A DNA stretch of 64,000 nucleotides from Spirochaetales bacterium. Lineage in GTDB: Bacteria > Spirochaetota > Leptospiria > Leptospirales > Leptonemataceae. The stretch covers positions 1,612,001 through 1,676,000 of the forward strand of contig JABTUL010000001.1 in assembly GCA_015075425.1 (NCBI GenBank), written 5' to 3'. Both the position numbers and the translations under genes were made by a program. How positions within the stretch are numbered: position 1 is the stretch's first letter; each line of letters starts with the position of its first letter. The notes below the pieces were generated by a model. That model was not told where the DNA came from. It saw nothing but the letters and a program-made list of their open reading frames with translations, and did no database searches. Positions 1,583 to 12,774 of this stretch are shown here, in pieces.

Positions 1583-4387
1583 ATGCTGGACAAAGTCCTT
1601 AAGATCGTTTTTGGCTCCAAACACGAGCGTGACATCCGTCAACTCCGCCCCATCGTCGAAGAAATCAATGATCTGGAAAAAGCCTGTCAGGCCTTAAGCG
1701 ATGAAGAACTCTCCGCCTCCACTGCCTTTTTTCGCGAGCGGATCGCCAAAGGAGAAAGCCTGGAAGATCTTCTACCCGAGGCTTTTGCCCGGGTCCGGGA
1801 AGCATCGTGGCGGAGCCTCGGCATGCGCCACTTTAACGTCCAGCTGATCGGCGGGATGGTGCTCCACCAGGGAAAGATTGCGGAAATGAAAACAGGGGAA
1901 GGAAAGACCCTGACCTCGACTCTGGCCGTTTATCTGAATGCTCTTTCTGGAAAGGGTGTGCATGTCGTCACTGTAAACGATTATCTGGCCCGTCGTGATG
2001 CCCTGTGGATGAAACCAGTCTATACTGCTCTGGGCGCGAGTGTGGCCTATATCCAGCACGACATGCTACCGGAAGAAAGACGCCAGTCGTATCTGGCAGA
2101 TATTACCTACGGTACCAACAATGAGTTTGGTTTTGATTACTTACGTGATAATATGGTAACCGATTCCGAACTGCGTGTGCAGCGCGGTCACAATTATGCC
2201 ATTGTGGACGAGGTGGACAGCATACTTATTGACGAAGCGCGCACTCCGCTCATTATCAGTGGCCCGACCGATGAACGCACAGAGCTTTACGTCGTAGTGG
2301 ATCGGGCCATACGCCAGCTCCTGGACCTGGAAAAGAAAGCACCTCCTCCACCTCCCGTTGAAGTGGAACCTGGAAAGGAAGAACCTCATCTGATCCGCGG
2401 TTACTACTATGACGTGGATGAAAAATCCCGCAATGCTCTGCTTACAGAAGCGGGAATCCAGAAGATGGAAGAGCTGCTGCGCATAGAAAACCTGTTTGCT
2501 CCGGAGAATGTGGATCTGGTTGCTCATACCAATCAGGCATTGCGAGCCCATCTGATATTTCAAAATGAAGTGGACTATGTGGTTCAAAACGATGAAGTAT
2601 TGATCGTAGATGAGTTCACCGGGCGCCTCATGGAAGGCCGCCGCTACAGCGATGGGTTACACCAGGCCCTGGAAGCTAAAGAAAAAGTAGAAATCAAACG
2701 CGAAAGCCAGACTCTGGCGACGATTACCTTTCAGAACTATTTCCGCATGTACAGCAAGCTGGCCGGCATGACCGGAACGGCGGATACGGAAGCGGATGAG
2801 TTTAAGAAAATTTACAAACTGGAAGTTGTGGTTATCCCGACCAATGTGCAGGTGGCCCGGATTGATTATCCTGATAGAGTCTATCGCAGCGAAAGGGAAA
2901 AGTGGAATGCGATCATTGAGGAGATCAAAACCTGTCATCTGGAAGGCCAGCCCGTGCTTGTGGGGACCATTTCCGTCGAGAAATCGGAGTACCTCTCTTC
3001 ACTGCTCAAGAAATCAGGGATTCCTCACAACGTGCTCAATGCCAAGCAGCACGCCCGGGAAGCAGAAATTGTAGAAAATGCAGGAAAACCGGGGGCCGTT
3101 ACGGTAGCCACCAATATGGCCGGTCGCGGCACGGATATCGTTCTGGGCGGATATCCGCTTTATACCAGGGACATGGAGGCCCTGGAGGAAGAGAATTCGG
3201 ACGTGGTTACTTTCAAGGTCGCTTTACGGAAACGCGATTGGGAAGAAGCACAAAAGGCGGCCGCCCGCGCCGGAGGCCAGGCCGTTCAGGCGCGGTTGCG
3301 CGAAATCTATGATCGGGCCATGATCTGGAAAAAGAATCACGAGGAGGTCAAGGCCAGCGGCGGATTGCATATCCTTGGAACCGAGCGTCATGAGGCCCGG
3401 CGTATTGATAACCAGCTGCGCGGTCGTGCAGGTCGTCAGGGCGATCCGGGAAGCAGCCGTTTCTACCTGTCTATGGAAGACAATCTGATGCGCATCTTTG
3501 GCGGTGAGCGCGTAAAGAACTGGATGACGCGCCTGGGTATGGAAGAGGGCCAGGAGCTGGAAGCGCGCATGGTGGACCGGGCCATTGCCCGGGCACAAAA
3601 AAGGGTTGAGAATCACAACTTCGATATTCGTAAACATTTACTCGAATACGACGATGTGATGAACAAGCAACGCGAGTACATCTATAAAGAACGAAACTTT
3701 ATCCTGGATAACGAAAACGTTCAGGCCCACCTGTTTACCTGGATGCAGGAAGTGCTGGAACAGGAAATCCTGAACTACTGTCCGGACAAAGATCCTTCGC
3801 GCTGGGATACGGAGAGTTTACAGGAATACTTTCGTTCCTTGATCGGCACGGAGGTTCTTTTTGGCGCGGAGCGGTACAGCAAATCGGCCAATCCCCAGCT
3901 CGATCTTTTCAATGATATCTGGCAATCCTGTGAGCAAGCGTACCGTAAAAAGGCGGAGTCTGTCGGTCCAGAGAATCTGGCCTATGTTGAGCGGCGCATC
4001 GCACTGGATGTGATTGACGCTCGCTGGAAGGAGCATCTGTACTCCATGGACCATTTACGCGAAGGAATCTGGTCCATTTCCTATGCAGAGAAGAATCCCC
4101 TGGTCGAGTACAAGCTGGAGGGTTTTCGCCTTTTTGACGAAATGTCCTACAACATCAAGGCACAGATCACAGAGTTTCTCTTCCGTGTGCAAATTCAAGG
4201 GCCCGTGGACATGCAGCCGGCTGAACGAACCCGAGGCCGTGAGATTCACAATGAAATTGAAAGTTTCAGCGGCAGCGGAGGCATCCCGCTCCAGCATCAA
4301 GCGCGCGGACAGAGAGAAACAAAGCACAGCCAGTCCAGCGGCGGTGCTTCCCAAAAGAAAAAAACCAGACGGCAGCGACGATCTTAA
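1583..4387 (+). CDS. secA: Protein translocase ATPase SecA
   Basis: SecA is the cytoplasmic motor that drives unfolded preproteins through SecYEG. The 934-residue product shows Walker [12 protein letters not shown] near residue 105, the Walker B/DEAD region [16 protein letters not shown], the [10 protein letters not shown] motif, [18 protein letters not shown] and [14 protein letters not shown] of the second nucleotide-binding fold. The ATG at 1583 is chosen because the product then begins [17 protein letters not shown], the usual SecA N-terminus; the frame is open 84 bases further upstream with unrelated residues. A proline-rich insertion ([17 protein letters not shown]) lies in the variable region of the second nucleotide-binding fold. 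The C-terminus ends in a basic [10 protein letters not shown] tail and lacks the CxCxnCH zinc motif that binds SecB in proteobacteria. It converges with the nucleoside transporter gene, overlapping by 4 bases. Confidence 0.97.
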
Positions 4388-5685
4388 AGCATCAGGCCAG
4401 CGATGGTGGCCGTCAGAAAAGCGGCGAGTGAACCACCGATCACAGCGCGCAGTCCCAGCCGGGCCAGATCGGAGCGCCGGGAGGGTGCAATGCCGCCAAT
4501 CCCCCCGATTTGAATGGCGATGGAAGAAAAATTGGCAAAACCACAAATAGCGTAGGACAGGATGATGAGTGTGCGCCCGCTGAGTTGCTCCTGCATCTGG
4601 GCCATTGCGCCGTAGGCAATAATTTCATTGAGAACAATCTTTTTCCCGAGGATGATTCCGGCAAGGGCCGATTCGTGAGCGGGAATACCCATGGACCAGG
4701 CTATGGGATAGAACAACCAGCCAAAAATTAATTCGAGAGAAAGCTGCGGCGGGCCAGCCGAACGAAGCGCATCAGGAACCAGAAAGCCACCCCAATCGGC
4801 AAAGCCGATTTTGCCGCCGAGAAATACCAGGGTGTAGTTCGCCATAAAGATAAGGGCAATGAAAGCAAGGAGCATGGCCGCTACATTAAAGGCCAGAGTC
4901 AATCCTTCTCCCGCGCCGCGGGCAGCAGCCTCAATTACGTTCGCGTCTTGCTTCTCAATCGGGATTTCCACTCCACCCATCGTGCGCGGGGTCTCTGTTT
5001 CCGGAATCATAATTTTGGCGATGGCCAGAGCCGCGGGCGCGGACATAACCGATGCCGTCATGAGATGTCCGGCAATGTCCGGGATGCGATCATTGAGCAT
5101 GCCAACGTACGCGGCCATAATCCCGCCGGAGACCGTGGCCATCCCGCCCACCATGACCGTCATGAGTTCAGAAAGTGTCATATCTTTTACGTAAGGTCGA
5201 ATGAGTAAAGGCGCTTCTGTTTGACCCACAAATACATTGGCCGAGACAGACAGAGTCTCTGCTCCGCTGGTACCCATGAGCTTCTGCATGACGATCGCCA
5301 TGACTTTTACGACCCGCTGCATAATCCCCAGGTGATAGCCGATGGCCATCAGCGCGGAAAAAAAGATAATAGTAGGTAAAATTTGAAAAGCAAAAATGAC
5401 TGATCCGAAATCTTTGCTCGATGCCAGTGAGCCAAACACAAACACGGAACCGCTCTCCGTAAAAGAGAGGACTTTATTGAAGACGGCGCTGGCCAGTTGA
5501 AACAAAGGTTGCAGGACACCCGGTATTCCGAAGGCCGGAACCCCGAGTATCAACAGCGCAAAAACTACCTGCAGGGAGATTCCCCAGGCAACGACTTTCC
5601 AGCGGATGATCCGCCAGTTGCTTGAAAAAGCCAGAGCTATTCCGAGCATAATGAAGATACCGGCAAAGCTGATCAGTCGTTCCAT
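4384..5685 (-). CDS. nupC: Concentrative nucleoside transporter, NupC/CNT family
   Basis: A 433-residue inner-membrane carrier importing nucleosides with H+ or Na+. Family marks are the [13 protein letters not shown] motif, the [20 protein letters not shown] re-entrant region and the C-terminal [20 protein letters not shown] stretch, with about ten membrane segments and the normal CNT length. Its start lies 13 bases inside the end of the upstream sulfatase-like gene, so the two are probably co-transcribed and translationally coupled. Its stop overlaps the end of secA on the other strand by 4 bases, leaving no room for a separate terminator. Substrate (pyrimidine or purine) cannot be told. Confidence 0.93.
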
Positions 5686-7505
5686 GAGGCAAACTTCTTT
5701 TGCGGAAACGTTCTGTCAAGGCCGGAAGGCAGTTCTCTGGGAATCTTTGCCGGCCACAGTCTGTTTGTGGCTTCCAGACGGCGCAGTGCGCTGTAGATGG
5801 TGCTTAAATACTTTCCCAGGGATTCGACTCTGTCCGGATCATGGGCCGCACGGTTGGTGGGATCGAATGGCCGGGCAATCCGTAACAGGGAGTAGCGGTA
5901 TCTTTCCTCCTCAATCCAGGGCCAGAACAGGAGAATCTCCCGATCCCGGGCCAGTCCCAGCACCTGATGTCCGGACCCGCCTATGGTCAGAGCCGTTCCC
6001 TGGTAGTTGTTGCCGAGTAAAGAATCACCCAGGGCATGATGAAAAAAATCGCCGCCCAGAAGATCAAGTATGGTGGGCACAATATCGAGCTGCGAAGCCA
6101 CGGGCGGGGTCTGCCAGGGTATCGGCAGTCGGCCTGAGTGGACCAGACGGAAGAGCGGCACGGCTTTATCAGCAATGGGATCCAGGTTCTGATGTTCTGT
6201 GTGATCAGAGGTGAGAAGAATTTCCAGCGCCTCTCCCTTCAGTTCGCCCAGCAAATCGGCAAGGCACAGGTCCGTGGTGCGGACACTGTCCTCGTAGGGG
6301 TCAGTGGAAATATCTCCCTTTCCTGCGTAGGGGTGGTGTGAATTTACGCTAAAATAAAGGGCCAGAAAGGGCTTTCTGCTCTGTAACTTATCTTTAAGAT
6401 CTTTTTTCACTGAAACGATTGCTGCGCAATCCTCTGTAGCTTGTAGCTCATCGGGCCCCAGCACCTGGGTAAATCCCTGGCCGCTCAAAAAGCGGTCCAG
6501 ATGATCCAGCTCGATTCGTGCCGGATAGTAAAAAGAACTTTCTATGTGGCGTTCTTTTAATATATTTCCCAGACTTCCGTAGCGCGTCAGAGAATCGGCG
6601 CTGCGCAAAACAGATCGGTCATTGCGATCCAGAATGCCCGTTGTGATACTGAAAATACCATTGGCGCTGCGTCCACCGGCAGCCAGGGTAAAGGGCAGTC
6701 TTTCCCATTGCAGGTTTGAGAGTGCGGGCAGGTTGCGCTGCGCGCTCTGGGCTGATACGGACTCCAGAATGATCAAAAAGACGCTCCGTCCCGGCCCCCG
6801 CCCCGGGAGATAGCGCAGCAGCGGATAATCTGCATGCAACGGTAACGACCGCTCTTTGAGGAATTTCTGCCAGCTATCTTCATCCAGCGCTGTGGAGAAG
6901 TCCGGGCGATCAAGCAGGCTATGAGTTAGAACAAAAAAACCGTTGGTGGCAAGACCGGCGGGATTCTGCCCCAGAGCATCGGCCGGGCGCAGAACCCCGG
7001 CAGAGAAACCACCCCGCATACCAATGATCAGGAAAAGAGTAAGAATGGCGCTCCGGATCTGACGCGGTTTTCGCGGTTCCGGCAAACGCCGCAGTATCCA
7101 GGGAAGAAGGAAGAGAATGGCGCTTAAGAGCAGAAGTGTCCCCGCATCGCGCGCCACGAGTCCGGCGAATAAAGTCAGAGCTTCATCGCCATACTGGAGG
7201 GAAGCAAGTCCCGGGTAGCGACCGTTGTAGTACAATTCCAGGTTGCCAAGAAAGAGAATCACTGTAAATAGATATATAATAAAATTTTGCAATAAGCCGG
7301 TCATCCGTAACAGGAACCTGTTTTCGGTGAACAGGGAAAAAGCTGCCGGCAGGAGCAGCATGGATAGCGTGGAAAAATCGAATCTCAACAGGGAAGGCAG
7401 AAAGGTCCAGCTTATATTTTCGTTCCAGAGCAGGATCAGGGCGTGGATATGGGAGAAGATGAGAATCGACCAGGCGATGAGGGCATAAGAGAAAAAGCGC
7501 TTCAT
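5673..7505 (-). CDS. LtaS-like sulfatase/phosphoglycerol transferase membrane protein
   Basis: The 610-residue product starts with about five membrane helices and continues with an extracytoplasmic alkaline-phosphatase-fold domain of the LTA synthase / phosphoglycerol transferase group. Visible family marks are VFLIILESVSAQ (metal-binding strand), GGRSANGIFSITTGI (nucleophile region, with Ser or Thr where LtaS has Thr), FSVNSHHPY, LLTSDHTEH (normally GDHG) and SQLDIVPTILDLLGG. It probably transfers phosphoglycerol or a related group to an envelope glycan or lipid; the substrate is unknown. ATG 7505 is chosen because it begins MKRFFSYALIAWSI, a normal signal-anchor; the frame is open further upstream to 7682 but that runs into the divergent PfkB gene. 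It overlaps nupC by 13 bases. Confidence 0.82.
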   Translation of the reverse strand: MKRFFSYALIAWSILIFSHIHALILLWNENISWTFLPSLLRFDFSTLSMLLLPAAFSLFTENRFLLRMTGLLQNFIIYLFTVILFLGNLELYYNGRYPGLASLQYGDEALTLFAGLVARDAGTLLLLSAILFLLPWILRRLPEPRKPRQIRSAILTLFLIIGMRGGFSAGVLRPADALGQNPAGLATNGFFVLTHSLLDRPDFSTALDEDSWQKFLKERSLPLHADYPLLRYLPGRGPGRSVFLIILESVSAQSAQRNLPALSNLQWERLPFTLAAGGRSANGIFSITTGILDRNDRSVLRSADSLTRYGSLGNILKERHIESSFYYPARIELDHLDRFLSGQGFTQVLGPDELQATEDCAAIVSVKKDLKDKLQSRKPFLALYFSVNSHHPYAGKGDISTDPYEDSVRTTDLCLADLLGELKGEALEILLTSDHTEHQNLDPIADKAVPLFRLVHSGRLPIPWQTPPVASQLDIVPTILDLLGGDFFHHALGDSLLGNNYQGTALTIGGSGHQVLGLARDREILLFWPWIEEERYRYSLLRIARPFDPTNRAAHDPDRVESLGKYLSTIYSALRRLEATNRLWPAKIPRELPSGLDRTFPQKKFASWND

Positions 7506-7545
7506 TTTGCTTGTCAGTGCACGACTGTCAGAAAACAAAACTTCC

Positions 7546-8547
7546 GTGCAAGTAGAGAAGCAAAAAAAAGCTGTATTCGGAATTGGCAACGCTCTGGTGG
7601 ATACTCTGGCCTTTGTGTCTGATGATTTTATCCGCGAGCACGATTTAAGCAAGGCAAGCATGACCCTTGTGGATCCGGCCACGCAGGGCAGGCTTTTGAA
7701 TGCTCTGCAGCATCATGAGCTGGAATTGCGCAGCGGAGGATCTGCTGCCAATACCATGTTCGCCCTGGTGCGATCCGGTGGCTCTGCATTTTACACCGGG
7801 AAGGTTGCCCGGGACTCCAATGGAGAGTTTTACCGTGAAGATCTGCTCCGGGCAGGGATTCATTTTGACATACACCCGGCGGCTCCATCGGAAGGAAATA
7901 CGGGAACCTGCCTGGTCATGACCACTCCCGATGCTGAACGGACGATGTGTACCCATCTGGGGGTTTCGACTGCTCTTTCCGTAGGCGACGTCGATCTAAA
8001 TCGGCTGGCCCGCTCGCATATTGTCTATCTGGAGGGCTACCTCTGGGATGCAGACAGGCCGCGCGCAGCCTGTGAAGCGGCCATGGAGGCGGCACGTAGC
8101 AGCGGTGTGCAAATAGCGTACACATTCTCTGATTCCTTCTGCGTGGATCGCTTCCGTGACGACTATTCCCGAATTTTGAAAGACTACATAGATATCCTTT
8201 TCTGCAACGCTGCCGAATTAACCTCGTTTTTTCAAACAGATGATTTTTCTGCCGCTCTTTCTCTTCTCTCAACTAAAGCGCGGCTGGCTTTTGTCACCCA
8301 TGGTGCTGATGGCGCGTATGTCCTTGAGGCCGGCAGGATAGAGCATGTTGCCGGCTTTCCCGTCGATCCTCTGGACACCAATGGTGCCGGAGATGCTTTT
8401 GCCGGTGGTGTGCTCTATGCTCTCTGTGCCGGACACAGCGCTCCCCAGGCTGCCCGCTGGGGCAACTTCCTGGCAGGGAAAATCGTTCAGGTGCGCGGAC
8501 CACGCCTCGAGGAAGATGTGGCCCATCTGGTAGCTACGATCTTGTAG
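7546..8547 (+). CDS. PfkB-family carbohydrate/adenosine kinase
   Basis: A 333-residue ribokinase-fold enzyme. The N-terminal FGIGNALVDTLAFVSDDF, the substrate loop GGSAANT and the C-terminal DTNGAGDAFAGGVLYAL anion-hole and catalytic-Asp motif are those of PfkB kinases; the N-terminal form is most like bacterial adenosine-kinase-like members. It should phosphorylate a nucleoside or sugar with ATP. GTG 7546 is taken as start because it leaves eight residues before the first conserved strand; a TTG at 7507 in frame is an alternative and would make the 5' ends of this gene and the divergent sulfatase nearly touch. The stop codon abuts the ATG of the glycosyltransferase, so it heads a four-gene run. 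Exact substrate uncertain. Confidence 0.85.
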   Translation: MQVEKQKKAVFGIGNALVDTLAFVSDDFIREHDLSKASMTLVDPATQGRLLNALQHHELELRSGGSAANTMFALVRSGGSAFYTGKVARDSNGEFYREDLLRAGIHFDIHPAAPSEGNTGTCLVMTTPDAERTMCTHLGVSTALSVGDVDLNRLARSHIVYLEGYLWDADRPRAACEAAMEAARSSGVQIAYTFSDSFCVDRFRDDYSRILKDYIDILFCNAAELTSFFQTDDFSAALSLLSTKARLAFVTHGADGAYVLEAGRIEHVAGFPVDPLDTNGAGDAFAGGVLYALCAGHSAPQAARWGNFLAGKIVQVRGPRLEEDVAHLVATIL

Positions 8548-9639
8548 ATGCGCGTACTTCACCTGAGTACTTCAAGCAGCTGGCGTGGCGGAGAGCAACA
8601 GATTCTCTATCTGTGCCGCGGACTCCGTGAACTTGGACAGGATCAGCTGGTCGTCTGCCAGGACGGTTCCGATGCAGTGACTCGCTTTAAAAATGAAGGT
8701 ATAGTTGTCCGCGAGATTTCCATGCGTGGCGAGCTGGATTTTCTGGCTGCGTACCGGTTGTCCCGGGTGGCCCGCGAATTCGGGGCGAACCTCATTCATG
8801 CGCACACAGCGCGCGCGCACAGCCTGGGGCTATTATCTTCACTTTTTACACGTCTGCCGCTTTTTGTATCGCGGCGCGTGGATTTTCCCGCCCGGGGCAA
8901 CATCCTTTCCCGTTTGAAGTACCGGAGCCCGCGAGTGACGGTGTTTATTGCTATTTCGCAAAATGTAAGAAATATTTTAGTCAAGGATGGAATTGCACCG
9001 CAGCGTATTCGAGTGGCCTATTCGGGCATTGACCCCGATAGATTCCGGGATTTACCGGCAGCACGGGCTCTGCGAACACAGTACGGCCTAAAGAATCGGC
9101 TGGTCCTTGGCAATGTGGCAGCCCTTGTCGATCATAAGGATCAATCCACTTTACTCCGATCCCTCTGGCTGCTCAAACAGAGGACGGATGTGCCGCCCTT
9201 TACCTGCCTCATTGTTGGTTCCGGTGAGCGTGAACTGCGTCTTAAATCCCTGGCTTATGAAGAGTTGCAGCTGAGTGCAAGCGATGTTGTTTTCTGTGGC
9301 TTCCAAAAGGACATACTTCCTTATTTTGCCCTGTTCGACATTTTTGTCATGAGTTCCCGTGAGGAGGGCCTTGGAACCAGTGTTCTTGATGCCATGGCCA
9401 GCGGTTTGCCGGTGGTGAGTACAACAGGTGGAGGCCTGCCAGAAATGGTCGATGAAGGACAGGGTGGATTGCTTTCGGCTCCGGGTGATCCCGGCGCTCT
9501 GTGTGCCTCTCTTGCACGCATGCTCGGGGAAGCTGACCTGCGTGAGCGCTGTGGCCGCTACAACCAGAGCCGGGTCCGGGACTTTCATTTTCGACAAACG
9601 GCGAAGCAAACGCTGGAAATCTATAAGGAATTTTTATGA
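8548..9639 (+). CDS. Glycosyltransferase family 4 (GT-B fold)
   Basis: A 363-residue cytoplasmic GT-B enzyme. The N-terminal half begins VLHLSTSSSWRGGEQQ (the GG acceptor loop), AHTARAHSLG follows, and the C-terminal half carries VGSGERE, the nucleotide-sugar site EEGLGTSVLDAMASGLPVV (E-x7-E motif with the first Glu in SREEGL) and GGLPEMV. These place it among WaaG/RfaB-like transferases that build lipopolysaccharide core or capsule. ATG 8548 follows directly after the TAG of the PfkB kinase, and its stop overlaps the next ATG (ATGA). The context suggests envelope glycan assembly; donor and acceptor sugars are unknown. Confidence 0.9.
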   Translation: MRVLHLSTSSSWRGGEQQILYLCRGLRELGQDQLVVCQDGSDAVTRFKNEGIVVREISMRGELDFLAAYRLSRVAREFGANLIHAHTARAHSLGLLSSLFTRLPLFVSRRVDFPARGNILSRLKYRSPRVTVFIAISQNVRNILVKDGIAPQRIRVAYSGIDPDRFRDLPAARALRTQYGLKNRLVLGNVAALVDHKDQSTLLRSLWLLKQRTDVPPFTCLIVGSGERELRLKSLAYEELQLSASDVVFCGFQKDILPYFALFDIFVMSSREEGLGTSVLDAMASGLPVVSTTGGGLPEMVDEGQGGLLSAPGDPGALCASLARMLGEADLRERCGRYNQSRVRDFHFRQTAKQTLEIYKEFL

Positions 9640-10730
9640 ACTTTCGCGACTCTCTGCGCCGCCTGGGTCAAAAAATCCGCCGTTCCTCCGACACGCTTGC
9701 CTACCGTTCGCGGCAGGCCGGAGATCTCATGCTTTCTGTCCTCGAGCAGGGTGATGAAGCGCTGGAGAAAGCCTTTGAGCTGGCCCGGTTGCGAAAGGCG
9801 CCCGCACCCAGCGAGATGCCGGTTGATTTTGCTTTGCGTGACTCTCCACTGTTGCGCAAGGCTTATGAGACACTGGTGCCGGTTTCTCATGTGTTCCGCA
9901 TGGGACACCGGCACGATCGTGAATATCTGGAAGATTTCATGCCCATCAGCAATGATTCCTTCATTGGCCGTGGTTCTTATAAATTTGTTTATCACCTGCC
10001 CTGGCAGATGGTGGTAAAGGTATCCAAGGAAGTGCTGCCCTCTGATCCGTTGTTTGGTTCTCTTTTTCGGGAAGTGGATCGCGATCAGTCCCGTTTTCTC
10101 AAGCAGGAGGAGCGTGATCTGCAAGAATTTTTGGGTCGAAATCGACGACGCTACTATCGGGACCGATTACGCTTCAAATTCAACCGTCTGGGTCTTGAGC
10201 GTTACAGCTACTGGAAGGTGCGCGAAGCCCTGCCGGATCTGGTTTTGCCCACTCGTTTTTTTATGGGACTCCGCTGCCGGCATCGATTGTTCCGCACCGG
10301 GCATTACGAGAAAATCACACCGATGGACAGCCAGATCATGCTGATCGGTAAACATCTTAAAGAATTTGCCCGGGCAGCGCGTCCGTCGCGGCAGTCGCGA
10401 TTTATGAGCCGATTTGCCCCTCGTTTTGATTTCATGTTTGACACCCAGAGGTTCGGTCGGATCAAAAAAAAGGTTCTGCTTAAAATAACAGAGGATTTTA
10501 AGAACCTGATTCGCTACACAGAGCTACTGGCCAGTCGTGAAAAAATGATTCTGGACATTCATTCGGAAAACATCATTATCACGCTACCGGATTTTCAGCT
10601 GAAGATTTTTGACTTCCATTTGTTCGATGAGCATCTCTATGAACCATCACTTGTGCATGACCGGCCGGAAAAAGATCACATTGAATTGATCGAAAAATTT
10701 CTGGGTTCCCTTGAGAGCGATGGCGAGTGA
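9636..10730 (+). CDS. Kinase-fold protein, possibly lipopolysaccharide core kinase-like
   Basis: The 364-residue product has no recognised family but carries protein-kinase-fold hallmarks: a glycine-rich loop GRGSYKFVYHLP near residue 110 followed by VVKVSKE (candidate ATP-binding Lys), a catalytic-loop-like LDIHSENIII near residue 308 and a metal-binding KIFDFHLFD about 14 residues later. The same layout is found in the Kdo/WaaP and YrbL-type kinases that phosphorylate lipopolysaccharide core sugars. The N-terminal 80 residues and a central region rich in Arg, Phe and Tyr look specific to this protein. It overlaps the upstream glycosyltransferase (ATGA) and the downstream HAD gene (GTGA), so it is part of one translationally coupled unit. 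A small-molecule or sugar kinase is inferred, not shown. Confidence 0.6.
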   Translation: MNFRDSLRRLGQKIRRSSDTLAYRSRQAGDLMLSVLEQGDEALEKAFELARLRKAPAPSEMPVDFALRDSPLLRKAYETLVPVSHVFRMGHRHDREYLEDFMPISNDSFIGRGSYKFVYHLPWQMVVKVSKEVLPSDPLFGSLFREVDRDQSRFLKQEERDLQEFLGRNRRRYYRDRLRFKFNRLGLERYSYWKVREALPDLVLPTRFFMGLRCRHRLFRTGHYEKITPMDSQIMLIGKHLKEFARAARPSRQSRFMSRFAPRFDFMFDTQRFGRIKKKVLLKITEDFKNLIRYTELLASREKMILDIHSENIIITLPDFQLKIFDFHLFDEHLYEPSLVHDRPEKDHIELIEKFLGSLESDGE

Positions 10731-11452
10731 AACTCAGTCCAGACAAAATCCGGGCCATCCTTTTTGATATTGATGGCACCCTCTTTTCCAGCGAAAGTAT
10801 CATTCATGAAATCTACCAGCAGGAGTTCCGTCGCCACAGGAAACTCCATGGTGTGCCCGCTGAAATTCCTTCTCTCGAAAGTATTGTGGCGCAAATCGGC
10901 AAACCTGTTGTCGAAATCTTTGCCGCTCTGGCTCCGGATCTTGCCATCTCTGCCAGGCAGCAAATATCCGGGCGTATTTTGCGTGCACTGGTGCATGATA
11001 TAGAATCGGGGAAGGGTTTGCACTACCCGGGGGGACTTCTTACGGTCAGGACGCTGCATCAGGCGGGAATCAAGCTGCATGCAGCAAGCAACGGCAGAAA
11101 AGAGTACATTGAAGCGATCTTGCGCTCTGCCGGGATGGAAGGCTCCTTTGCCCCGATCCGGGCTGTCGATGGGTTGGAAATTCACAACAAAGATGAACTG
11201 GTCGCCACGATTCTAAGGGAAAACAACCTTCTTCCCGGGCAATGTCTTTTGATCGGGGATCGGGAAAGCGATCGCCAGGCGGCAGAGAAGAACCGGATTC
11301 CCTTCATAGCCTGTAGCTTTGGCCATGGCGACGCCCGTGAACACCGGGGAGCTGTCGCCGTACTCCGCGAGTTACCGGAACTTCTGGACCTGTTTGATTT
11401 ATCCGCACGGGCTGAATCTACCGGGCAAGATAGGCCGGAAGCTGTTCCATAG
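10727..11452 (+). CDS. HAD-superfamily phosphatase (phosphoglycolate phosphatase-like)
   Basis: A 241-residue haloacid dehalogenase hydrolase. Motif I ILFDIDGTLFSSE gives the nucleophile and acid Asp; motif II is HAASNGR; motif III is the Lys of NKDELVA; motif IV is LIGDRESDRQAAEKN. An alpha-helical cap lies between motifs I and II (subclass C1), as in Gph and PgmB. GTG 10727 overlaps the previous stop as GTGA. As the last gene of the PfkB / GT4 / kinase-like run it may remove phosphate from a sugar-phosphate intermediate. It overlaps the convergent helicase gene by 35 bases. Substrate unknown. Confidence 0.88.
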   Translation: MKLSPDKIRAILFDIDGTLFSSESIIHEIYQQEFRRHRKLHGVPAEIPSLESIVAQIGKPVVEIFAALAPDLAISARQQISGRILRALVHDIESGKGLHYPGGLLTVRTLHQAGIKLHAASNGRKEYIEAILRSAGMEGSFAPIRAVDGLEIHNKDELVATILRENNLLPGQCLLIGDRESDRQAAEKNRIPFIACSFGHGDAREHRGAVAVLRELPELLDLFDLSARAESTGQDRPEAVP

Positions 11453-12662
11453 AAATCTGCAGGTGATTTTCAAATAGTTTCATGATTTTGCTCTCTGTTG
11501 TGTCGTCACCGGGCGTCTCAGAAGCCAGTAGAATCAGGCGGTCTTCCGCTCTCGATGCTCCCACATAGGCAATGCGGATTTCTTCATCGGGCCGTTCCGG
11601 TTTGCGATTCCAGCCACCGGACAGGTCCAGTAAGACAACAGGGAACTCAAGGCCCTTCACACGGTGGATCGTACTTACGAGCTCCGGATCGCAACCAGCA
11701 TCAAGCCATAGCCGACGCTGGTAATTGCTGCGCACAAGAATCCTGACGTGGCTTTTGTTCTGGAGACTGTGAGCAACCATAGCCCTTTCTTCAAGGCAAA
11801 GTCGGACCACCGTTTTTTTGCTGCCGCGACCGCGAACACAGGCTACTTTCTTTCTGATCTGCCGACGAGACAGGGCAATGATTTTGCTTCCGGCCTCAAT
11901 GATCTCCTTTTTGCTGCGGTAGTTGCTGCCAAGCTTCAACTGCCGCGTACCTGGAAAGTAACGCTTAAAATTCAAGAAGGGCTCAACGGTTGCCCCGCGA
12001 AAACCGTAAATAGCCTGCCAGTCATCGCCCACCACAAAGAGCTGCTCAAAAATCATCTGTTGTAAAAATTCCAGTTGCAGTGGATCGGTATCCTGAAATT
12101 CATCCACCACAATCAAATCATAGGACCGGCGCAGTTCCGGCAATTCGGGCAGGTGTTGCAGAAGGAGGGCGGAAAGATCATCGAACTCAAAGCCGGGTAA
12201 GGTTCTCTTGTAACTGTAGAACGCATGATGCACCTGCATGCAGAGTGCGGGCAAGAGTCGGCGGAAGCTTCGCGGAAAACGGAGCAAAACGTCATAGGGA
12301 ATGCCCAGGGTTGCGCTTCCAGCCTCTTTCAGTCGCTCCCGAAAGAAGCGGTAGCGGATTTGCGGCGAGATGAGTTTTCCCGGTAAAAGCCGATGCCGGC
12401 GCAAATGCCTGTAGCAAAAAGAGTGGAAGGTGCTGATTTCCACTCCTGACCGGAGCTGTGGAGCCAGGCGGGAGCGCATTTCGGCCACTGCTTTCCGGGA
12501 AAAGGAGAGGGCCAGGATGCGCTGCGGGAGGATGCCTTCCCGGATCCTTTTTTCCAGAAGGCCGATCACCGTGCGGGTTTTACCGCTACCGGCCGCGGCG
12601 ATCACCTGACAGACCCGCTCCCGACAGGAAAGAATGGCACTTTGCGCGGCAGAAAAGGACAT
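11418..12662 (-). CDS. Compact UvrD/Rep-type (SF1A) helicase
   Basis: A 414-residue superfamily 1A helicase with every core motif present: Walker A AAAGSGKTRT (I), LSFSRKAVAEMRSRL (Ia), VVDEFQDTD (II), VVGDDWQAIYGFRGA (III), GSNYRSKKEI (IV), TIHRVKGLEFPVVLLD (V) and AYVGASRAEDRLIL (VI). Classical UvrD, Rep and PcrA are 650-750 residues, so the 1B and 2B insertions are drastically reduced here. Start: ATG 12662 gives MSFSAAQSAIL; a GTG 15 bases upstream is the alternative; neither has a clear ribosome binding site. It diverges from fliD and overlaps the HAD gene at its 3' end. A complete PcrA-type helicase is encoded elsewhere in the window (35972), so this one is presumably specialised. Confidence 0.85.
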   Translation of the reverse strand: MSFSAAQSAILSCRERVCQVIAAAGSGKTRTVIGLLEKRIREGILPQRILALSFSRKAVAEMRSRLAPQLRSGVEISTFHSFCYRHLRRHRLLPGKLISPQIRYRFFRERLKEAGSATLGIPYDVLLRFPRSFRRLLPALCMQVHHAFYSYKRTLPGFEFDDLSALLLQHLPELPELRRSYDLIVVDEFQDTDPLQLEFLQQMIFEQLFVVGDDWQAIYGFRGATVEPFLNFKRYFPGTRQLKLGSNYRSKKEIIEAGSKIIALSRRQIRKKVACVRGRGSKKTVVRLCLEERAMVAHSLQNKSHVRILVRSNYQRRLWLDAGCDPELVSTIHRVKGLEFPVVLLDLSGGWNRKPERPDEEIRIAYVGASRAEDRLILLASETPGDDTTESKIMKLFENHLQISMEQLPAYLAR

Positions 12663-12774
12663 ACAGAGCAATGTCACCGGGAAGGCTTCTGTTGCGCCCG
12701 CGGCCGGTTTTTTTCATTCTGCACTCATGATTCTTCATTTCTGCCCGATGCTTACCCTAACACCGGAGGAGTCT

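Follow-up and report, generated by a model that had tools for sequence, protein, structure and literature searches.

Here, we describe a kinase-like protein, hereafter KIN, encoded in a 64,000-nucleotide stretch of a Spirochaetales bacterium of the Leptonemataceae (assembly GCA_015075425.1, contig JABTUL010000001.1, positions 1,612,001 to 1,676,000; hereafter the window). Judged from its sequence, KIN is apparently an active compact kinase that has been filed under no named family and is specific to one bacterial order. Its catalytic positions are invariant, and its predicted fold bears a moderate resemblance to that of two-lobed kinases with a very short tail behind the DFG (Asp-Phe-Gly) position. 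We tentatively favor the reading that KIN is an intact, compact, atypical kinase that phosphorylates an envelope glycoconjugate, working mainly with the glycosyltransferase encoded directly upstream, and that the two outer genes of its cluster are co-transcribed neighbors; the cell-envelope role in particular is a guess.

KIN is the third of four open reading frames (ORFs) on the same strand, listed here in window coordinates with lengths in amino acids (aa):

7546..8547, + strand: PfkB-family kinase gene (PfkB), 333 aa from a GTG start; Pfam PF00294
8548..9639, + strand: GT4 glycosyltransferase gene (GT4), 363 aa; Pfam Glyco_trans_1_4 and Glyco_transf_4
9636..10730, + strand: KIN gene, 364 aa; outside all named families
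10727..11452, + strand: HAD-superfamily phosphatase gene (HAD), 241 aa; Pfam Hydrolase and HAD_2

A first-pass annotation of the window had described these genes as abutting or overlapping by up to 4 bases, and the ORF coordinates bear this out, with junctions of TAG/ATG between PfkB and GT4 (gap 0), ATGA between GT4 and KIN (−4) and GTGA between KIN and HAD (−4). A TTG at 7507 is a possible in-frame start for PfkB besides the GTG at 7546.

The KIN family, its active site and its predicted fold

Searches of Pfam (at E values up to 1), NCBIfam and PHROGs matched KIN to no family, in agreement with the first-pass description of an otherwise unrecognized protein, and because no model matches it, KIN would go unannotated by the Pfam and NCBIfam libraries. 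KIN alone had no match among PDB sequences. An alignment of the 27 family members returned nine PDB rows, consisting of PAS-domain proteins and one ribosomal protein at E values of 0.76–1.4, which we took as chance; against viral contigs it gave 47 pattern matches and no relative, and a plasmid collection contained no match to KIN. A literature search on Leptospira lipopolysaccharide and core kinases, whose coverage left out most subscription journals, yielded nothing on KIN among the matches listed.

KIN occurs as a single copy in 27 of 30 sampled genomes of the order, which we infer to be the Leptospirales, comprising a Leptonema-like family that includes the window and a Leptospira-like sister family. 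Relatives share 40–63% identity with the window protein, and in one genome (G029) the gene is split across two contigs. The genomes without KIN are G009 (0.9 Mb, 76% complete), G010 (2.2 Mb, 91%) and G021 (77%). Among 149 sampled genomes of the phylum, 13 carry KIN, all of them within the two families of the order, and the other 136, including at least one order member (G010), are negative. In these searches, KIN is a kinase family found only in this order.

The sequence motifs GRGSYKFVY, LDIHSENI and FDFH, which the first-pass annotation had picked out as those of a kinase fold, are present and conserved across the family. Counting residues over 28 alignment rows, one of them a 70-residue fragment, we found ten invariant positions (G111, R112, G113, V118, K128, E159, D307, H309, N312 and D326), which fall into the following elements:

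9966..9992, + strand: glycine-rich loop GRGSYKFVY, KIN residues 111–119; G111, G113 and V118 invariant in 27 of 27 covering rows
10017..10019, + strand: Lys128, at the position of the beta-3 lysine that binds adenosine triphosphate (ATP); invariant in 27 of 27, model strand 125–130
10110..10112, + strand: Glu159, candidate alpha-C glutamate; invariant in 27 of 27, model helix 157–167
10551..10574, + strand: catalytic loop L-D-I-H-S-E-N-I, residues 306–313 (D307, H309, N312); D, H, E and N invariant in 28 of 28
10608..10619, + strand: FDFH, residues 325–328, the DFG position with His for Gly; D326 in 28 of 28, H328 in 27 of 27

The glycine-rich loop, beta-3 Lys, alpha-C Glu, catalytic Asp and Asn, and DFG Asp occur in kinase order, with Glu159 taken as the putative alpha-C residue because it is placed in a helix. 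Every one of the 28 rows reads L/Y/F-D-x-H-x-E-N at the catalytic loop, and the DFG-site tetrapeptide is FDFH in 26 and FDYH in one of the 27 rows that are complete there.

AlphaFold models of the window protein (predicted local distance difference test 81.0, predicted template modeling score 0.79) and of a relative from the sister family (81.6 and 0.80) have the same succession of elements. In the window model, the invariant positions map to a strand-loop-strand, a strand, a helix, a strand-loop and a strand, with the glycine-rich loop flanked by strands 109–112 and 116–120. The leading Foldseek matches are mostly protein kinases, and aminoglycoside phosphotransferases are also present. To judge by their titles, the VIA-align matches listed are kinases; the best of those for the window model is HopBF1 (Z 10.0, root-mean-square deviation 4.2 over 169 residues), and the top three for the second model are 6zxf chain z (Z 10.6, 201 residues), which we take to be RIOK1, Rio1 (4jin; 10.3, 204 residues) and 8zdb (10.3, 191 residues), with deviations of 4.7–5.2 over these 191–204 residues. 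Both 8zdb, whose title names RIOK3, and 6zxf are entries of ribosomal subunits. WaaP is absent from the VIA-align matches listed for either model, which carries no weight either way. We assign KIN to the kinases because its motifs are invariant and in order and because the fold match is moderate; the conserved residues thus support the kinase-type protein proposed in the first-pass annotation, and the predicted fold supports it more weakly.

KIN proteins have a mean isoelectric point of 9.3 (n = 26), with values of at least 9.5 in 27% of them; among 231 ORFs from the fetched loci that are 250 aa or longer, the share is 10%. The charge of their first 50 residues ranges from −5 to +9. We considered membrane binding on these grounds and set it aside, as the evidence is too weak and variable.

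Gene order and partner genes

To compare loci, we counted two genes as neighbors if they lie on the same strand with a gap of less than 600 bases, given start codons chosen by script. In the window's family, PfkB and GT4 are neighbors in all 18 genomes that have both (14 measured, and G014, G018, G020 and G021 by coordinates), GT4 and KIN in 10 of the 19 KIN-bearing genomes, and KIN and HAD in 13 of the 19. These counts are lower bounds because some contigs break off within the cluster or next to it (G007, G018). The 4-base overlap between GT4 and KIN is present in six of the ten genomes with this pair, including the window, and such recurrence indicates more than chance. All four genes are contiguous in five of the 19 genomes (G000, G004, G006, G008 and G011), and the arrangement is therefore not unique to the window genome. 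The expectation that the order would be conserved across the Leptospirales holds for part of the window's family and fails in the sister family, where the genes are scattered: no two of the four are neighbors in its eight genomes (PfkB was not found in G029). On a KIN tree, the genomes with KIN apart from GT4 cluster together with modest support (80/84) and those with the GT4-KIN pair occupy the remaining branches of the window's family, which agrees with PfkB-GT4-KIN-HAD being the ancestral order of this family and having split later.

PfkB matches Pfam PF00294 at 8.9e-49 (166.9 bits, curated cut-off 25.8). When queried from position 7549, its best solved structures are 3ubo, an 'adenosine kinase' (1.1e-58), and 4e3a, a 'sugar kinase' (3.1e-58), while the best ribokinase reaches 3.9e-16. 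The 3ubo and 4e3a matches span nearly the whole protein, and bacterial adenosine kinase is its closest known counterpart, although PfkB does not reach the cut-off in any of the 22 NCBIfam families listed. PfkB thus looks adenosine-kinase-like and is no obvious sugar activator.

The GT4 and HAD proteins are generic. GT4 exceeds the Pfam cut-offs for Glyco_trans_1_4 (7.8e-30, 104.4 bits, cut-off 27) and Glyco_transf_4 (4.1e-20, 72.9 bits, cut-off 28.5), falls under the curated cut-offs of the best 25 of its 40 NCBIfam matches, and is 26% identical to E. coli WaaG over 187 residues, which we took as ordinary for the fold. A GT4 relative of 46–47% identity occurs in G039 (L130:6140-7294, − strand), a genome that belongs to the class but not to the order and has no KIN match; the gene may stem from horizontal transfer. 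HAD matches Pfam Hydrolase above its cut-off (1.6e-17, 65 bits, cut-off 26.4) and HAD_2 (3.5e-17). The first-pass annotation had named it a sugar-phosphate phosphatase; none of the 25 NCBIfam matches listed for it (of 33) clears the curated cut-off, which counts against the single sugar pathway considered below.

A HAD relative stands next to lpxC in G026, G027 (L143:5629-7426), G028 and G029, and not in G022–G025. We rejected this adjacency as a link between the cluster and lipid A, since it concerns just four of the eight sister-family genomes and HAD relatives of 35–40% identity. An LpxC-family match of far lower significance (E 1e-18 to 6e-10) occurs in seven genomes of the window's family, five of which also have the main one; these weaker matches lie at G001:C28, G003:C29, G011:C9, G015:C30, G016:C51, G019:C122 and G021:C39. 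A Kdo-transferase-family gene near KIN in G014 was likewise rejected as a sign of a lipopolysaccharide operon because two ORFs, one of them on the opposite strand, lie between the two; by coordinates, such a gene is close to KIN in no other genome.

Upstream of the cluster, the nearest gene is divergent from PfkB:

5673..7505, − strand: membrane sulfatase-fold gene; Pfam Sulfatase 6.3e-13, PDB 3lxq 1.2e-12

The 3lxq entry is its sole solved-structure match. A sulfatase-fold gene lies on the strand opposite to PfkB, 40–2472 bases off, in 11 genomes including the window, and the ten relatives near PfkB elsewhere in the window's family are 26–31% identical to it. Beyond it, one gene away from the adenosine-kinase-like PfkB, is a NupC-type nucleoside transporter (4384–5685, − strand), relatives of which were not found by tblastn at 1e-4 in 27 fetched KIN loci. 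On the other side of the cluster, a short UvrD-like helicase gene (11418–12677, − strand, 419 aa) runs convergently toward HAD, and the two overlap by 35 bases at the 3' end of HAD.

Possible substrates of KIN

In the reading that we tentatively favor, GT4 would glycosylate an envelope acceptor on the cytoplasmic face, and KIN would phosphorylate the added sugar or a neighboring one from ATP. We infer the envelope location, the order of reactions and the substrate. KIN would pass the phosphate to a small molecule or glycan and not to proteins, because it combines a D-x-H-x-x-N loop with just 35–48 residues after the DFG aspartate D326 (27 rows). The target glycoconjugate may be the lipopolysaccharide core or a glycolipid, with labor divided as between E. 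coli WaaG, also a GT4 enzyme, and WaaP. In several genomes KIN would be translated from a frame overlapping that of GT4, and E. coli K-12 offers a parallel in which a kinase-type gene adjoins a glycosyltransferase gene, as waaG overlaps waaP. PfkB and HAD would probably be co-transcribed neighbors and not obligatory steps of the same pathway.

Two reduced genomes bear on the proposed pairing. G009 and G010 lack both KIN and GT4 and keep both PfkB and HAD, which in G010 are direct neighbors behind the gene for the acetolactate synthase small subunit. A functional GT4-KIN pair would account for this joint absence, as would joint insertion elsewhere or the chance loss of two neighbors.

Several observations weigh against an envelope kinase acting with GT4. 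None of the eight sister-family genomes has GT4 linked to KIN. In this family, KIN follows recQ in six of the eight, overlapping it by 8 bases in five given the chosen starts (L059, L060, L062, L064 and L066; in L056 the two are 36 bases apart; Pfam confirmed recQ in two of the six), while GT4 lies directly upstream of polA in the four genomes inspected (L137, L139, L141 and L145; two of these loci confirmed by Pfam). The partners of both genes therefore change with the clade. As G009 and G010 pair on the PfkB tree (99/95, 19 rows), on long branches, one event may underlie the lack of both GT4 and KIN in the two genomes. G021 (77% complete) has GT4 without KIN and G016 (87%) has KIN without GT4, a split that may reflect missing sequence. 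LpxC and a Kdo-transferase-family match are present in G010, though neither is found in G009, so a minimal lipopolysaccharide does not require KIN. The structural evidence is similarly restrained: Foldseek matches reach E values of 0.016 for the window model and 0.010 for the second, with none at or below 0.001, and include IucA/IucC-type synthetases and a SAICAR synthetase, and Z scores near 10 are only moderately above the 7–8 quoted as the typical best for models without a clear match. Finally, the mean similarity of KIN to WaaP, WaaY and YrbL is no higher than to shuffled sequences.

The alternative that survives best, although we consider it unlikely, is that KIN is a protein or regulatory kinase whose adjacency to GT4 in one family is accidental. 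Its sole Pfam matches with a kinase meaning are sub-threshold Pkinase matches in 4 of 27 members (best E 0.0065; best PF00069 score 16.3 bits, under the curated cut-off of 31.7), which in two of the ten members inspected singly cover residues 267–324 and 278–324, the region of the catalytic loop. RAF and other protein kinases tie with the RIO kinases in the fold lists, RAF kinases coming within 1 Z unit of the RIO matches by VIA-align, and the neighbors of KIN differ between the two families. RIO kinases act in ribosome assembly, and KIN may share their compact atypical fold (A. fulgidus Rio1 scores Z 9.4 over 184 residues with the window model). However, it differs from them in its D-x-H-x-x-N loop and D-F-H, and it lacks a believable sequence match to solved structures, with RAF kinases matching equally well. 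The fold lists also contain the small kinases HopBF1 and OspG, in entries of 168–176 residues. These two are effectors of pathogens, whereas KIN is a conserved chromosomal gene across an order and is 11% identical to HopBF1. Two features argue against a protein kinase. The residue two positions after the catalytic Asp is His in 28 of 28 KIN rows. A pattern search of 30 kinase-like loci from genomes of the phylum, several of them outside the order, gave 13 catalytic loops, and 11 of these have Lys at this position. Moreover, the substrate-binding half of the C-lobe of a conventional protein kinase needs more than the 35–48 residues that follow the DFG position in KIN.

It is considerably less probable that KIN truly belongs to the WaaP/KdkA (PF06293) or YrbL (PF10707) family and has diverged beyond easy recognition. 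The accessible text of one study places WaaP closest to RioK1 and gives D-L-H as its DFG equivalent (PMC6147952). This parallels the D-F/Y-H of KIN (27 of 27 covering rows), and the WaaY loop, S-G-D-P-H-R-G-N, follows the D-x-H-x-x-N pattern. Compared with WaaY, a single KIN sequence out of 26 scores 53, above the shuffled 95% point of 46, but outside the register of the motifs. By contrast, neither PF06293 nor PF10707 matched any of the 27 members at E ≤ 1, and profile comparison by hhalign gave probabilities of 0.1–0.2%. The E. coli WaaP loop reads H-R-D-x-Y-x-x-H where KIN has L-D-I-H-x-E-N, KIN carries an N-terminal part of about 100 residues ahead of its glycine-rich loop that distinguishes it from WaaP, and E. 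coli YrbL, by our reading, has S where the catalytic D is expected. Membership in either family, which the first-pass annotation had suggested examining, is thus unsupported by the sequence tests. PF10707 matched none of the 149 phylum genomes, with the E. coli control detected, and the PF06293 genome matches listed sit away from KIN, many of them in frames of 900–2000 residues. We rejected the PF06293 match in the window's own genome as a real lipopolysaccharide kinase, as it is another kinase-like protein with the loop H-G-N-I-E-P-S-H.

We think it very doubtful that KIN is a pseudokinase or scaffold. Its DFH in place of DFG and its weak fold scores would suit such a protein, but a pseudokinase is expected to lose some catalytic positions, and every row covering Lys128, Glu159, Asp307, Asn312 and Asp326 retains them, in both families and at identities to the window protein as low as 40%. 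Least probable of all is the single pathway of the first-pass annotation, in which PfkB activates a sugar, GT4 transfers it, KIN phosphorylates it and HAD trims, since, despite abutting or overlapping genes that are contiguous in five of 19 family genomes, PfkB is nearest to adenosine kinases (1e-58 against 4e-16 for ribokinase), the genes are dispersed in the sister family, HAD is apart from KIN in 6 of 19 genomes, and PfkB persists with HAD where GT4 and KIN are gone, beside it in one reduced genome. Taken as a whole, that earlier interpretation of the cluster is partly supported, and a role for KIN in the lipopolysaccharide core is possible.

A more specific proposal, which we regard as improbable, is that KIN is an unrecognized inner-core (Kdo/heptose) kinase of leptospiral lipopolysaccharide, arising by independent invention or by extreme divergence from WaaP/KdkA. 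If Kdo were phosphorylated, this could, speculatively, contribute to the difficulty of detecting it in leptospiral lipopolysaccharide, on which the accessible part of one article describes conflicting reports (PMC4628369). The pathway is still called poorly understood in the available text of a 2026 paper (PMC13111663). Should a glycan of the envelope prove to be its substrate, KIN would close a gap in this pathway and offer an enzyme target specific to the order; if not, it would still be an atypical kinase with a conserved function.

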